38,574 bases of DNA from a virus. Shown in pieces: positions 1 to 38,574 of the stretch. Every line of letters begins with the position of its first letter. The stretch's first letter is position 1. The notes beneath the pieces were generated by a model. That model saw only the letters and a list, made by a program, of their open reading frames with translations, was not told the origin of the DNA and did not search any database. The stretch lies in the IMG/VR virus record IMGVR_UViG_3300009183_000023, positions 1-38,574 of that record. One strand, given 5' to 3'. The position numbers and the translations under genes were made by a program.

Positions 1-123
1 AAACAAACCACTCCATCTATATGTACAAGGTTCAAAGCATGTGCGAGGAATTGTAATTAAATTAGCTTGAGCGCAAGTAGATGTATAAGTAAATGGTTGC
101 ATTACAGGTCTTGTGTAAGGCAT
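1..123. repeat. Terminal direct repeat, copy 1 (circular overlap)
   Basis: The first 123 bases are identical to 38452-38574. An open reading frame on the minus strand continues without interruption from this copy into the sequence preceding the other copy, so the simplest reading is a circular molecule (or circularly permuted phage genome) whose assembly overlaps itself by 123 bp. Unique length is 38,451 bp. A true short direct terminal repeat cannot be excluded. Confidence 0.95.
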
Positions 124-1146
124 TGCAATATTTTGCAAACCAAACATTGAATTGTTTGATAATAGAACAAAAGTTTGATTAAAATTGCATCCTACACCTG
201 CAGTAAGTGGATTGTTTATTCTTGCAATTTCCGAATTATTTCCGCGTGAAATATAAATTCTTCCATCATTTGCATACCATCCTGTTCCAAGTGCTGCTGC
301 AGTTTGTGTTGTTGCACCAACTAATGTAATTGTACCGGCACACACATTTATTTGCCTAACTTGTCCATTATTAGAAAAGACATAAAGCAAATTCTCTGCA
401 AACTTGCTATCGTAACATCCAGTAACACCATAAGCATTTGTGAAGCTTACAATACCTGTTGACTTATTAAATCTATAAGTTTCGATTCTATTTGCTCCAT
501 AATAACAAACTGAAATTCTATTACCATCTGGATGAAATGCCAAAGTACCTTGCGTTTGTCCAATTGTACCAACAAAACCTGCTGCAGAAATAACTGCAGG
601 TCCTATTCCTGTTGCAGTCAAAGGATAAGCGTAAAAATTAGCAGATAATGCACGTTTGCTTACAATCCAAATTGTATCACCTGAACAAGTTTCTAATGCT
701 CCCATTGATTCGCGCATGTTAAATGGGGCATTCAAAACAACATTCTTTGCAGCAGTTACATCACCCAAACCACTATTTAAACTCATATCTATTATTGAAT
801 AATAAATTGGAGCTGATACTTGATTTAAGGTAAATAAATAAAGTATGTTTGGTGTATTTGGTTGCTGAACTATTAATGCAGATTGTGTTGTTGAAGTATT
901 GCCAGTTAGCCCAGCACCATTTGGCATTGGATTGTTGTTTCTATCGTATGCAGTTATCCCATCTGAATAAGCAAGAATTTGACCTGCAGCATCTGAAAGG
1001 CAACTTGTACCTTCAATTTGATTAACAGAACTAAATCCACTTGTTCCAGGTGCAGAAAAATAAACATTTCTTCCAAATACCCAATTCTGATTCTGAGCAT
1101 TTAATAAGCATGGGAGAAAAAGTAAAAGTGTGATTAGTTTTTGCAT
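1..1146 (-). CDS. Secreted NWxFG-type protein, N-terminal 382 residues (crosses the junction)
   Basis: This is the 5' part of a gene that continues at 38451 down to 38302; the joined protein is 431 residues. The start at 1146 gives a signal peptide (residues 1-18, ending LLNAQ). The mature protein opens with NWVFGRN (residues 21-27), followed by a DAAGQILAYSDG...MPNG...STTQSA stretch. This is the hallmark of large surface proteins of Cytophaga/Flavobacteria that usually carry PKD repeats and a T9SS type B tail; repeated G/W/N-rich strands suggest a beta-propeller-like fold (inference). The last 80 residues look like an Ig/PKD repeat, but there is no CHU_C domain: the protein ends ...ASVIGF. 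It lies directly downstream of the Ig/PKD gene, whose end (GGILGF) is similar. Probable role: exported to the periplasm or surface of the infected cell; purpose unknown. No homology search was possible. Confidence 0.85.
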   Translation of the reverse strand, partial: MQKLITLLLFLPCLLNAQNQNWVFGRNVYFSAPGTSGFSSVNQIEGTSCLSDAAGQILAYSDGITAYDRNNNPMPNGAGLTGNTSTTQSALIVQQPNTPNILYLFTLNQVSAPIYYSIIDMSLNSGLGDVTAAKNVVLNAPFNMRESMGALETCSGDTIWIVSKRALSANFYAYPLTATGIGPAVISAAGFVGTIGQTQGTLAFHPDGNRISVCYYGANRIETYRFNKSTGIVSFTNAYGVTGCYDSKFAENLLYVFSNNGQVRQINVCAGTITLVGATTQTAAALGTGWYANDGRIYISRGNNSEIARINNPLTAGVGCNFNQTFVLLSNNSMFGLQNIAMPYTRPVMQPFTYTSTCAQANLITIPRTCFEPCTYRWSGLF

Positions 1147-1204: not shown

Positions 1205-1792
1205 CTAAAACCCAAGTATTCCTCCATTCGGAGAAGGTAAGCCCACAACAATATCTGTTGTACTTCCTGAACAACCATTTGTTCCTGTTGTGGTATAAGT
1301 AATAGTTTGTCCTACCATTGAAGGTGTAATGGTTGTAACTACGTTTCCAAGTGCATCTGTATAAACTCCTCCAGTTGGTGTTCCTACTCCTATGGGAATT
1401 CCCGACACATTACTAAAACAAATGTTAGTAAGATTTAATGTTGGTGGAGTTGGTAAAATTACATCAATACAAAAGTTAATTGTTGTATCACATCCACTTG
1501 CAACATTTGTTACTGTATAATTTCCAGTAAAGTTACCTGCAGTATTACTTATTACTGCCCATGTAATTTGATTAGTACCTTGTCCAACAAATGCATTTGG
1601 GACATTTGATGTCCAAACAATGGTGTATTGAGGTACTGCAAATGGCGCACCTGTTGCAAGGTTCTGAGCTGTAAAGCCTCCTCCTTGTCCTACGCATTTT
1701 TGTAAACAAGGTTGTGAAATTGCTACAATCGCAATAAGCGTTAAAATAGCTGTAAGAATTATTTTCATAGGATTTAAGTGTTGGTTTTTCAT
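1205..1792 (-). CDS. Secreted Ig/PKD-like repeat protein
   Basis: The start at 1792 overlaps the upstream stop (ATGA). An internal ATG at 1768 puts the signal peptide (MKIILTAILTLIAIVAIS-Q) right at the N-terminus and may be the true start, giving 187 residues. The mature part is Thr/Gly/Asn-rich with two modules: residues about 35-115, and about 117-190 with the CFSNVSGIPIGVGTPTGGVY...NGCSGSTT pattern of Ig-like repeats in Bacteroidota surface proteins. Two internal Cys pairs could form disulphides after export. The C-terminus is SPNGGILGF; the next gene ends in a similar hydrophobic ...IGF. Exported, probably surface or periplasmic. It sits between the lysis genes and the NWxFG gene, so late expression with lysis is inferred. 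Function unknown. Confidence 0.8.
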   Translation of the reverse strand: MKNQHLNPMKIILTAILTLIAIVAISQPCLQKCVGQGGGFTAQNLATGAPFAVPQYTIVWTSNVPNAFVGQGTNQITWAVISNTAGNFTGNYTVTNVASGCDTTINFCIDVILPTPPTLNLTNICFSNVSGIPIGVGTPTGGVYTDALGNVVTTITPSMVGQTITYTTTGTNGCSGSTTDIVVGLPSPNGGILGF

Positions 1793-2187: not shown

Positions 2188-2841
2188 TTATTGTTCAATT
2201 AATCTTATTACTTTGCTAACCTGCCATAATTCCCTTACTCGTACAAATACTCCGTAACCATCTCTGCTTCCTCCTGGATTGGTGTTCCCTTCGATTGTGA
2301 TAATGTTTCCTTTTTCGGTAACACCCAAGACAATAAATATGTGGGCATCCCTGCCAAGATTAGAAAAATAAATAGTAGCGATGTCGCCCCTTCTGATCTC
2401 TGTTTGCAAAATGGAACGGCCTGCTTTTGCTTTGTTGAATACAACTTTTTCCTTCCAAATACCATTGCTCCAATTAGGAACATAACCGCTAACAGGGCAA
2501 GAAATGCAAGTATTACGACAAATAATACCCACGTAAGCAGCGCACCAAGGAGCCGGAAAGTTAATACCAACGGAATTAAGCATATTTTTAACATCCTTAC
2601 CCCAATTGGAGCCTTTGGGACGTTCTTCTGTTCCAAGGTAGTACAATGATTGGTTAATGAAGCATTCGGTAAGTACATGGTCTGTCTTAAATTTATGGTA
2701 CGTTAAATTAGAATTAGACTGTGCGCTAAGAAAATGGCTGCAAGTATTCCAAAGAAATAGCAGGCCCAATAAAATCGAAGTTCTTTTACACCAATTTTTG
2801 TTGTTTCTTCTCTGTCTGTGTATTGCTCCCAAATATCCCAT
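2188..2841 (-). CDS. Exported CHAP-domain endolysin
   Basis: A 217-residue cysteine amidohydrolase/peptidase of the CHAP (NlpC/P60-like) type, predicted to cut peptidoglycan at lysis. The candidate catalytic Cys100 is in APWCAAYVG, His167 in RDAHIFIVLG, and the third polar residue in IEGNTN (184-188). The N-terminus has basic residues, a hydrophobic core (SILLGLLFLW) and an Ala-Gln-Ser cleavage-like site at about 40-42, so it is probably Sec-exported or a signal-anchor-release enzyme rather than purely holin-released. The start lies 139 bases inside the upstream membrane-protein gene, in another frame. No later ATG would keep both the signal peptide and the catalytic Cys. The holin-like neighbour supports a lysis cassette. 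Confidence 0.85.
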   Translation of the reverse strand: MGYLGAIHRQRRNNKNWCKRTSILLGLLFLWNTCSHFLSAQSNSNLTYHKFKTDHVLTECFINQSLYYLGTEERPKGSNWGKDVKNMLNSVGINFPAPWCAAYVGIICRNTCISCPVSGYVPNWSNGIWKEKVVFNKAKAGRSILQTEIRRGDIATIYFSNLGRDAHIFIVLGVTEKGNIITIEGNTNPGGSRDGYGVFVRVRELWQVSKVIRLIEQ

Positions 2842-5144: not shown

Positions 5145-5651
5145 ATGAAAAAAATATTTTTTATTCTACTCACTACATTTTTAATGTATGGATGTGTCAC
5201 CGAAAAAAAACGTGCAAAGATTTGTGCTACTTGCGCAGTTAAAGAAGAAAGAATTGATAGCACTATATATAAAGAGTATTGGAGCTTCAGGGATAGTGTA
5301 TTAAATGTCCCAAAAGATTCTGCAATAATTGAATATGTTGTTGGTCCATGTCCAGATGGAACTATACCGGTGATTAAAGAAATCTATAAAAGGGATGGAA
5401 GGAAAACAACAATTACTGGTAAAGTCACCGGTAATAAAATTACAGTCAAAGCAGATGTTGGTGTTGAACAGTTAAAATTTGAAATTAAAGAAAAGACCAG
5501 AGAGATTGAAAGATTAAAAAAAGTAAATAAAACTTTACCTTGTCAAGAAAAGTTTGCAGAAGATTTCTTTTATTATAGTGGAATTTGCGCTTATATTTTA
5601 GCATTCCTTGCAATTGTCTTGGCCGTAATTTATAGATCAATAAAAAAATAA
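5145..5651 (+). CDS. Lipoprotein with C-terminal membrane helix, putative u-spanin
   Basis: A 168-residue protein. The start at 5145 gives a classic lipoprotein signal (MKKIFFILLTTFLMYGC, lipid-carrying Cys17); starts further upstream would run through the promoter. The middle is a charged region with a predicted coiled coil (FEIKEKTREIERLKKVNK, about residues 110-130). Residues about 143-163 form a hydrophobic helix ending in YRSIKK. N-terminal lipobox plus C-terminal membrane helix is the layout of unimolecular spanins (phage T1 gp11 type), which join the outer and inner membranes and fuse them at lysis. A CATCAVK motif after the lipobox recurs in similar Bacteroidota phage proteins as far as I recall. 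It is separated from the holin/endolysin genes by the divergent promoter region. Confidence 0.65.
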   Translation: MKKIFFILLTTFLMYGCVTEKKRAKICATCAVKEERIDSTIYKEYWSFRDSVLNVPKDSAIIEYVVGPCPDGTIPVIKEIYKRDGRKTTITGKVTGNKITVKADVGVEQLKFEIKEKTREIERLKKVNKTLPCQEKFAEDFFYYSGICAYILAFLAIVLAVIYRSIKK

Positions 5652-33108: not shown

Positions 33109-34581
33109 ATGGCAACACCTGCAGATTTTAAAAAACTTACCGATCCAACCATTCCCAATCAAACAGGGGCTGTTGCATTAAATGATTTACTTCATACAGT
33201 AGATGTAAGTGATACAACTTCAGGGGCTGCAGGAACATCAAAAAGAACTACTGTACAAAAGATATTTGATGTTATTGCTGCTACTTTAATTCCACCAACA
33301 TTACAAGAGGTAACAGATGAAGGTAACACTACTACAAATGATATTATTCTTGATGGTAGTGCAATTGAAGTGGATAGTGGTGCAAAATTGCGTAATGGTT
33401 CACTTGATAATGGATTTGGCGGTGGTATTTCACAAGAATGTGTTGCAGGGTATGAGCAAGAATGGGAAAATGGTGTACAGTATTATTTCCCATTATTAGG
33501 AGATGTTGTTTATGCAAATTCAATTAATGGTGTTGCTCCAGGTGTTACTTTTGACAATACAAAAGGATATGTAGTTGGAAGTAGATACAGATTGTTAAGT
33601 ACAGGTATTGAATATATTTGTACGGATGCCACAACAGGTGCTGCAGTTTGGAGTGCAATAGGTAATGTAGAATCAGTAAATGCAGGGACAAATATTACTA
33701 TAACTGGAACTCCAGAAGAACCAATTATAAATTCATTAGCGGATAGGTACAAGACATCTTCAACTACATCAAACAGCGTAAGTAATGGTTCAAAAAGTTT
33801 TACTGTTGATTTGAATTTAGCATACATTCCACTTCAACAAATCCTTGTAGTTTATAATCCTTCAAACCACATGCATGGTGAAGTTACAAGCTATAATGCT
33901 GCAACAGGTGCGCTCGTAGTAAATATTACAAGTCATACTGGAAGTGGAACTTATACATCTTGGGTATTGAATCTTGATGGTACTCCAGTAGATGCAATAA
34001 CAGGTTTAGGAACAGCAAATGAAATTACATATTTTACAGCTTCAAGTATTATTGCATCATTGCCTGTTGCTACATATCCTTCATTAAGTGAATTAGCTTA
34101 TGTAAAAGGTGTAACAAGTGCAATTCAAACACAGATAAATGCCAAACAAGATACACTTGTAAGTGGTACAAATATCAAGACTATTAATTCATCTTCAATA
34201 CTTGGAAGTGGAAATTTAGCCACACCATTTGAATTGGTAATAGCTGCATCTGATGAAACAACTGCATTGACTGCAGGTAATGCTAAAATAACATTTAGAA
34301 TGCCACGTGCAGTTACTTTAACTGCTGTTAGGGCATCACTTACAACAGCGCAAGCAAGTGGAAGTATTTTTACAGTAGATATTAATGAGAATGGTACAAC
34401 AATATTAAGCACAAAGCTAACGATTGATAATACTGAAAAGACAAGTACAACTGCAGCAACACCTCCAGTAATAAGTGATACTGCATTAGCAGATGATGCA
34501 GAAATTACAATTGATATTGACCAAATCGGAAATGGTTCTGCAAAAGGTTTGAAAGTAATGTTAATAGGAACTTACGCATGA
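33109..34581 (+). CDS. Long tail fibre with shared N-terminal domain
   Basis: A 490-residue protein with the same 60-residue N-terminal domain as the upstream gene. The centre is repeated beta structure (AIEVDSGAKLRNGSLDNGFGGG, SVNAGTNITITGTPEEPIINS, 'KQDTLVSGTNIKTINSSSILGSGN' region), like the shaft of many fibres; the C-terminal about 125 residues (from about 375) look like a globular beta domain (LTAVRASLTTAQASGSIFTVDINENG). Likely the main host-recognition fibre. The stop overlaps the next start (ATGA). Confidence 0.8.
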   Translation: MATPADFKKLTDPTIPNQTGAVALNDLLHTVDVSDTTSGAAGTSKRTTVQKIFDVIAATLIPPTLQEVTDEGNTTTNDIILDGSAIEVDSGAKLRNGSLDNGFGGGISQECVAGYEQEWENGVQYYFPLLGDVVYANSINGVAPGVTFDNTKGYVVGSRYRLLSTGIEYICTDATTGAAVWSAIGNVESVNAGTNITITGTPEEPIINSLADRYKTSSTTSNSVSNGSKSFTVDLNLAYIPLQQILVVYNPSNHMHGEVTSYNAATGALVVNITSHTGSGTYTSWVLNLDGTPVDAITGLGTANEITYFTASSIIASLPVATYPSLSELAYVKGVTSAIQTQINAKQDTLVSGTNIKTINSSSILGSGNLATPFELVIAASDETTALTAGNAKITFRMPRAVTLTAVRASLTTAQASGSIFTVDINENGTTILSTKLTIDNTEKTSTTAATPPVISDTALADDAEITIDIDQIGNGSAKGLKVMLIGTYA

Positions 34582-35599: not shown

Positions 35600-35893
35600 A
35601 TGGAACTAATAAAAATGTTTTGGTGCCAAGTTTCAAAATTGGTAAATGATTATCCTGAAGTTGACATAACTGTTGGCACATCTATTGGGACTGCATCCAT
35701 TATTAGTTTGTCAAAGGATGAAATTACTTTTGCAACACAAATGTTAATTGCAATAGTTACAATTGGATTCTTTTTTTTAAGGGCAATTTTCGCTTACAAA
35801 AAAAACAAGCGCGAAGAAATTGAATTGAAGCTTAAAGAAATGGAACGTGAGCAAGAAGAATGGGAATTTAAAAAAAGGAATGGAATAGATTAG
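35600..35893 (+). CDS. Small membrane protein, second holin candidate
   Basis: A 97-residue protein: short N-terminus, a weak hydrophobic stretch (TVGTSIGTASIISL, about 26-39), a strong transmembrane helix (MLIAIVTIGFFFLRAIFAY, about 48-66), then a charged coiled-coil tail (KKNKREEIELKLKEMEREQEEWEFKK). This is holin-like in size and topology, and the last gene of the rightward arm. Its stop codon overlaps, on the opposite strand, the stop of the leftward T9SS-type gene. Confidence 0.6.
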   Translation: MELIKMFWCQVSKLVNDYPEVDITVGTSIGTASIISLSKDEITFATQMLIAIVTIGFFFLRAIFAYKKNKREEIELKLKEMEREQEEWEFKKRNGID

Positions 35894-36408
35894 CGTACCA
35901 AGGTAACACGTCCTAAATCCCTTAATTTTTGCCCTAAAATTGTTGTGTAATCACAAGTGTAAACATATACACCACCCATACATTTATTTCCTTTATAAGT
36001 ACCATCCCATTCATTAACACCTTTAAATATTACTTGTCCTTCCCTGGTATAAATTGTGATTAAATCTATTGTAACATTGTCACCAACAGGAATCCATGTT
36101 TTATTATCTCCATCCGGTACAAAGGCATTTGGAGCGTAGTAAGTCCATTCTTTACATTCTTCCACGTTTACGAGAACTTTATCAATAAATGAACAGCCAA
36201 ATTCATTGGTAACTTCAAGCTCCACAAAAAATGCACCTATCCGATTAATTACAAGTGTAGCATCTTGTTCTGTACTTATATAACCATCAATGGTCCATTG
36301 GTAAGCATAATTATTTTGAGTGGTAAGATTTATAATTGTGTCTTTGCAATACGCGATTTGCGAAAATGTACCAAATGGTATAATACTAAATAGTAAAACA
36401 AATCTCAT
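35890..36408 (-). CDS. Secreted protein with T9SS type B sorting domain (CHU_C/gliding type)
   Basis: A 172-residue protein. Signal peptide at 1-17 (MRFVLLFSIIPFGTFSQ), an Ig/PKD-like module at about 20-83 (YAYQWTIDGYISTEQDATLV... GAFFVELEVTNEFGCSFIDKVLV), and a C-terminal domain at about 88-172 that matches the gliding-motility/CHU_C pattern: YAPNAFVPDGDNKTW (91-105), IYTREGQVIF, EWDGTYKG (133-140), GGVYVYTCDY (145-154), ending GRVTLVR. In Flavobacteria this domain directs proteins through the type IX system to the cell surface. Here it would be exported by the host's Sec then T9SS. A leaderless promoter (36413-36420) precedes it. Confidence 0.9.
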   Translation of the reverse strand: MRFVLLFSIIPFGTFSQIAYCKDTIINLTTQNNYAYQWTIDGYISTEQDATLVINRIGAFFVELEVTNEFGCSFIDKVLVNVEECKEWTYYAPNAFVPDGDNKTWIPVGDNVTIDLITIYTREGQVIFKGVNEWDGTYKGNKCMGGVYVYTCDYTTILGQKLRDLGRVTLVR

Positions 36409-36412
36409 CTAA

Positions 36413-36420
36413 CAAAATTA
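36413..36420 (-). promoter_or_regulatory. Leaderless promoter of the T9SS-type gene
   Basis: TAATTTTG on the minus strand ends at 36413 and the ATG is at 36408, four bases on, so the transcript should be leaderless. TTTTG stands about 16 bases upstream as the -33 element, slightly short of usual spacing. Confidence 0.55.
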
Positions 36421-38301: not shown

Positions 38302-38574
38302 TTAAAATCCAATTACACTTGCTAAAATATTACCTGTTACATTTATATTTTGTATAATGGATGTTGTTTCGCAATCACAAATTCTTTCTAATGTAATTGA
38401 ATGCACACCATTTGGTAAATTTACAGTTACGTTAAGCCCCATTACACTTCCAAACAAACCACTCCATCTATATGTACAAGGTTCAAAGCATGTGCGAGGA
38501 ATTGTAATTAAATTAGCTTGAGCGCAAGTAGATGTATAAGTAAATGGTTGCATTACAGGTCTTGTGTAAGGCAT
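38302..38574 (-). CDS. Secreted NWxFG-type protein, C-terminal end (same gene as 1-1146)
   Basis: The 3' part of the 431-residue gene that starts at 1146. Positions 38574-38452 duplicate 123-1, so only 38451-38302 (49 residues plus stop) is new. It encodes an Ig/PKD-like repeat (TIPRTCFEPCTYRWSGLFGS... VTVNLPNGVHSITLERICDCETTSIIQNINV) with several cysteines, ending LASVIGF. The frame fits exactly at the junction (1146 and 150 bases are both multiples of three), which is the best evidence for circularity. Confidence 0.88.
   Translation of the reverse strand: MPYTRPVMQPFTYTSTCAQANLITIPRTCFEPCTYRWSGLFGSVMGLNVTVNLPNGVHSITLERICDCETTSIIQNINVTGNILASVIGF
38452..38574. repeat. Terminal direct repeat, copy 2 (circular overlap)
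   Basis: Identical to 1-123. Consistent with a circular assembly of a circularly permuted or circular phage genome. Confidence 0.95.

Follow-up and report, generated by a model that had tools for sequence, protein, structure and literature searches.

The Llp protein of phage T5 is a receptor-blocking periplasmic lipoprotein that is bound to one receptor and acts without the type IX secretion system (T9SS). Cargo of that system with a type B sorting domain needs five motifs for its secretion (PMC12618676) and is anchored by PorP/SprF-like proteins (PMC9143113, PMC12618676). These shuttles are scarce, the cargo consuming them in a one-to-one ratio, and type B cargo made in excess fails to be secreted (PMC12618676). 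A neighbouring PorP/SprF gene is usual without being strictly defining, as illustrated by three orphan cargos in F. johnsoniae (PMC12618676). Signal peptides of Bacteroidota follow a Q-rule, with a glutamine directly after the cleavage site (PMC5837995). On the phage side, Cryophage carries three type A T9SS cargo genes, for which superinfection exclusion was suggested (Bellas et al. 2020, PMC7468147), and phages of Porphyromonas gingivalis have proteins with Q-rule signal peptides (PMC10367356). In Flavobacterium and Cellulophaga, gliding adhesins are likely phage receptors (PMC7345892, PMC13288928).

Here we analyse a viral genome of 38,574 nucleotides (the window, meaning the whole stretch) in which a preliminary description had singled out a minimal type B cargo gene. 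We propose, with a probability of roughly 0.6, that its product (the mini-cargo) is a phage-borne type B T9SS cargo that would anchor a set of three proteins at the cell surface. The features concerned are collected in Table 1.

Table 1 Features of the window discussed in the text
Feature	Position	Strand	Remarks
Terminal direct repeat, copy 1	1..123	.	
Terminal direct repeat, copy 2	38452..38574	.	
Propeller-like exported protein (beta-propeller-like), N-terminal 382 aa (of 431)	1..1146	-	Signal peptide, Q18
Propeller protein, C-terminal part	38302..38574	-	Overlaps terminal repeat; tag ASVIGF
Codons of C-terminal tag ILASVIGF, propeller protein	38305..38328	-	
Exported PKD-like protein, 195 aa	1205..1792	-	Signal peptide, Q27; no sorting domain
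Codons of C-terminal tag PNGGILGF, PKD-like protein	1208..1231	-	
CHU_C (type B T9SS) mini-cargo	35890..36408	-	Profile, alignment, AlphaFold2
TAATTTTG, putative Bacteroidota -7 type promoter box	36413..36420	-	4 nt upstream of mini-cargo ATG, leaderless

Architecture of the mini-cargo

The 172-aa product consists of a Sec signal peptide (residues 1-16) followed by Q17, one Ig/PKD-like domain (about 20-85) and a C-terminal CHU_C sorting domain (about 89-172), and the reading frame, coordinates, motifs and modules of the preliminary description are all recovered. The N terminus is hydrophobic and Q17 invariant, as befits a Sec signal peptide, and the chain ends in GRVTLVR, invariant in the sibling contigs, which places the sorting domain at the extreme C terminus. 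The assignment to the type B sorting family, originally made from motifs, is upheld by a marginal PF13585 (CHU_C) match to residues 93-156 (E = 4.7e-6; 27.1 bits against a curated cut-off of 27), but not by TIGR04131, whose score (E = 3.2e-6; 27.2 bits) lies under its curated cut-off of 35. We therefore file the domain under PF13585 only and regard it as real yet divergent in the window member; PF13585 scores of 43-60 bits are reached in other, unrelated phage members.

AlphaFold2 predicts two beta domains with a mean pLDDT of 83.7 when 31 homologues are supplied, falling to 41 with seven close homologues alone. In the former model the C-terminal domain is confident (92-97) and the Ig-like domain somewhat less so (74-89). 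Foldseek searches of the model against the PDB returned generic Ig-like matches only (whole-chain TM <0.4). Against predicted viral structures, the top hits were proteins of uncultured phages, 199 and 187 aa long, to which UniProt already gives the name 'Gliding motility-associated, C-terminal domain'.

The window has a TAnnTTTG box 4 nt upstream of the ATG, and so do five of the six siblings checked (L001, L002, L003, L004, L006). Its position is fitting for a leaderless Bacteroidota promoter, in keeping with the separate promoter predicted earlier.

A phage gene under purifying selection

The window is bounded by direct repeats of 123 nt, and one gene, encoding the propeller protein, spans the joined ends, its two parts (Table 1) forming a single 431-aa protein; the gene is unbroken in sibling contigs. 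Matches to PHROGs in the window include terminase subunits, portal, primase/helicase and helicase. Seven sibling viral contigs encode the mini-cargo at 64-77% identity and in the same place, beside the structural module at the end of the leftward arm, where the gene had been placed in the window. Its dN/dS is 0.10-0.20 in three unsaturated comparisons, values that are rough, as many dS estimates exceed 1. The mini-cargo gene is thus a real phage gene under purifying selection. A chimeric join with host sequence, the concern raised in the preliminary description, is ruled out by the repeats, the gene across the joined ends and the sibling synteny. Searches for a close relative in bacterial genomes, for host assignment, found none, with matches of 26-40% identity over longer stretches and one short match of 62%.

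Two co-conserved exported partners

The propeller and PKD-like proteins are likewise exported products of leftward genes, and both are without a sorting domain. The glutamine right after the signal peptide is invariant in all three families. Mini-cargo and propeller co-occur in every sibling contig that reaches both loci, and the PKD-like protein is present in all siblings where its place is held; one sibling (L007) is without most of the intervening genes, yet keeps all three exported proteins. The three genes are not contiguous in the window, the mini-cargo gene lying behind other genes with its own promoter. The propeller protein takes its name from repeats and weak matches and not from any structure, solved or predicted. 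It shares homology with the N-terminal region of giant chromosomal frames, mostly of 480-2700 aa; in one class, 90 of 149 genomes have such a frame (best match E = 7.8e-61, 41% identity). What had been described as a lone cargo is instead one part of a co-conserved set, within a wider class.

Small CHU_C proteins in other phages

The exact pattern PNAF[ST]PNGDG occurs in 24 viral stretches and its D variant in seven more, and many of these stretches encode small CHU_C cargo, so that the search for short relatives in other phages suggested earlier was productive. Proteins consisting of a bare signal peptide and CHU_C domain measure 107-109 aa in six contigs (L043, L049, L060, L061, L065 and, from an internal start, L056) and 116 and 139 aa in LR756502 and G008; those with an Ig domain and CHU_C measure 159-194 aa, and a further family of about 299 aa recurs in six contigs (L042:7881-8780(+), L048, L050, L051, L055, L064). 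T4-type portals are found in six large contigs with such CHU_C genes, and terminase in several. On sequence grounds, the window gene is a member of this broader class.

The bare genes (L043:6237-6560(-), L049:12075-12401(-), L060:4352-4675(+), L061:431-754(+), L065:6117-6446(-), L069:3986-4336(+), L124:5839-6258(+)) lie on phage contigs of diverse kinds, T4-portal phages included. In L042 the 299-aa gene lies where the tail module ends, a short way behind an endolysin gene and a small gene. Several CHU_C genes, long ones of 732-1670 aa plus a short one, are found in two uncultured phages, LR745206 (L067, L068) and LR756502 (L066, L069), both about 635-642 kb in size.

Of the 30 CHU_C proteins in our phage list, 20 are no longer than 300 aa, and of the 150 chromosomal open frames listed (median 1051 aa), 7 are; the contrast is only indicative because the phage list was hand-compiled, chosen by pattern and includes related members. 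Bare CHU_C frames away from contig ends number 2 among the 150 chromosomal frames listed, and one of these (L121) resembles the tail of a frame-shifted long gene.

Partners within a locus share C-terminal tags

In unrelated phages, T4-portal jumbo phages among them, a CHU_C gene recurs together with genes for a PKD protein and at least one further exported protein (L046/L123, L057/L144-L148, L063, L152), with partial sets of CHU_C, PKD and exported partner in L062 and L150. Partners within one locus end alike, for example in VIGF/ILGF in the window and PNIQ/ITIQ in L063, and in jumbo phages the tags of different partners vary in concert (IISHD/NISHD in L145, PINHN/PIQHN in L152). Chromosomal sets have the same design (L114-L116, L118, L119). 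In these, exported PKD proteins with shared tags, for example TSxIYH or TPTN, accompany a CHU_C protein about 350 aa long; a DUF4421 gene adjoins the L114 set and a PorP/SprF gene, confirmed by Pfam, the L119 set.

When proteins were shuffled among loci, the similarity of tags within loci was significant (permutation P = 5e-5) and that of the 50 residues upstream was not (P = 0.81); for the five phage loci alone the values were 5.5e-4 and 0.96. The sample comprised five independent phage loci and five chromosomal loci, several of which have an I-x-H-N/D tag in common anyway; the chromosomal loci were chosen by a small open frame matching a PKD protein, not by their tags. As the upstream residues carry no excess similarity, gene duplication is rejected as the general cause of the shared tags. 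Sixteen further chromosomal CHU_C neighbourhoods, chosen by CHU_C length, contained no tag partners, and there CHU_C is often accompanied by a PorP/SprF-like gene (recognized by eye). This excludes tag partners as a feature of all CHU_C loci, and tagged sets are therefore a minority design.

We hypothesize that the CHU_C protein may act as the reader of the tag. That the tag docks the propeller and PKD-like proteins for joint display is a tentative proposal, to which we give somewhat less than even odds. Its generalization, in which small CHU_C proteins would be T9SS adaptors onto which exported proteins devoid of a sorting domain dock through a short locus-specific tag, in phages and hosts alike, and with which phages would place proteins of their own on the cell they infect, is more tentative still.

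A proposed route to the host surface

PorP/SprF genes were absent from the nine phage records searched, the window included, and the usual cognate neighbour is thus missing beside the mini-cargo; the same search found seven and four such genes in two control chromosomes. Host shuttles must therefore serve the phage protein, and the sequence is best read as pointing to Sec- and T9SS-dependent export onto the surface of a Bacteroidota host. In the mechanism that we propose, host Sec would take all three proteins out of the cytoplasm and host signal peptidase I would cleave each at its Q-rule site. The host T9SS would then carry the CHU_C protein over the outer membrane, where a PorP/SprF-type shuttle of the host would hold it. 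The shared tag may dock the propeller and PKD-like proteins either to the CHU_C protein or to some shared partner, giving joint display and, as the outcome, a rebuilt surface of the infected cell. Similar kits occur in unrelated phages, so such phages probably rebuild the infected-cell surface too.

Receptor blocking, altered adhesion or gliding and help with release had been suggested earlier. The likeliest purpose of such a display would be to shield receptors or to exclude superinfection, although we offer it as speculation and consider it doubtful. Between siblings L003 and L004 the fibre segments share 20-36% identity and the CHU_C protein 99.4%, so a general surface effect fits better; the contrast counts weakly against a blocker tailored to a single receptor. 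The fibre-like protein at 33109-34581 (+) has a conserved N terminus and a C terminus that is replaced between siblings, probably reflecting receptor-binding variation. The proteins scanned with PADLOC gave no match at E up to 0.01.

Alternative explanations

The strongest alternative is that the sorting domain is itself the effector and the Ig domain incidental, the mini-cargo competing for the PorP/SprF shuttle of the adhesins and so keeping phage receptors off the surface. Because type B shuttles are few and each serves a single cargo, host adhesins could be barred from the surface even by a CHU_C protein that has no payload, and the behaviour of overproduced cargo (PMC12618676) and the likely role of gliding adhesins as receptors (PMC7345892, PMC13288928) are in line with this. 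The bare phage proteins of 107-139 aa (L043, L049, L056, L060, L061, L065, L069, L124) and the great rarity of such frames in chromosomes also speak for it. In the window, however, a plain decoy would have no need of a conserved Ig domain and two co-conserved partners, and we judge this explanation unlikely.

Improbable, in our assessment, is a function at the close of infection, with the exported set perturbing the outer membrane or helping progeny to escape from debris. A holin-like gene (phrog_4237) lies tail to tail with the mini-cargo gene, an exported endolysin is encoded in the same leftward arm, and the 299-aa family gene comes after an endolysin and a small gene; against this, the L063 set sits in a tail operon, the jumbo-phage sets are not consistently near lysis genes, and the mini-cargo promoter looks like a host housekeeping type rather than a late one. 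The three proteins might also be tail or fibre decorations with misleading signal peptides, given that the L063 set lies among baseplate and tail genes and the window mini-cargo gene near fibre genes, but strict Q-rule signal peptides in three families and a complete C-terminal sorting domain would then be unneeded, which makes a virion role highly improbable. Contamination, or a decaying host gene acquired by chance, would accord with a host origin of the CHU_C domain but is refuted by the seven syntenic phage contigs, the terminal repeats and the purifying selection.

The endolysin of the window (2188-2841 (-)) is of CHAP type and carries a Sec signal peptide of its own, again with the Q-rule glutamine; lysis may thus proceed without a holin to export the endolysin. 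A 168-aa protein at 5145-5651 (+), with a lipoprotein signal and a C-terminal membrane segment, resembles a unimolecular spanin; it has no PHROG match.

Comparison with known systems

The suggestion that such a strategy is undescribed was too strong. Type A cargo was reported in Cryophage in 2020 (PMC7468147) and UniProt holds the phage proteins named for the gliding motility domain, so phage-encoded T9SS cargo is not a wholly new idea. In the literature that we searched, which leaves many journals outside, there were no reports of type B phage cargo, bare phage sorting domains or a shared tag, and the tag-adaptor arrangement is possibly a new kind of system. Our analysis suggests that Bacteroidota phages may widely hijack the host T9SS to alter the surface of the infected cell, by means of a minimal type B cargo that is joined, in several lineages, by partners bearing tags. 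The tag as proposed would, if true, amount to a second route into the T9SS and would enlarge the secretome of the phylum; the bare phage sorting domains would be ready-made probes for the scarce type B shuttles.

Cryophage and the window have in common a phage-encoded T9SS cargo for which superinfection exclusion is suggested, but Cryophage carries type A domains on enzymes and a PA14 protein encoded by variable genes (PMC7468147), whereas the mini-cargo is type B, minimal and conserved across its phage lineage. The P. gingivalis phage proteins are similarly adapted to Bacteroidota signal peptidase I, although, unlike for the mini-cargo, no T9SS domain is reported for them (PMC10367356). With type B cargo in general (PF13585; SprB and PG1035 are the studied cases) the mini-cargo shares a Sec signal peptide, a C-terminal CHU_C domain and the expectation of a PorP/SprF-type shuttle. 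It differs from chromosomal type B cargo in its length (172 aa against a median of about 1050 aa), in being phage-encoded with no shuttle gene nearby and in having its payload on separate polypeptides. With T5 Llp it may share a purpose, that of hiding a receptor on the infected cell.
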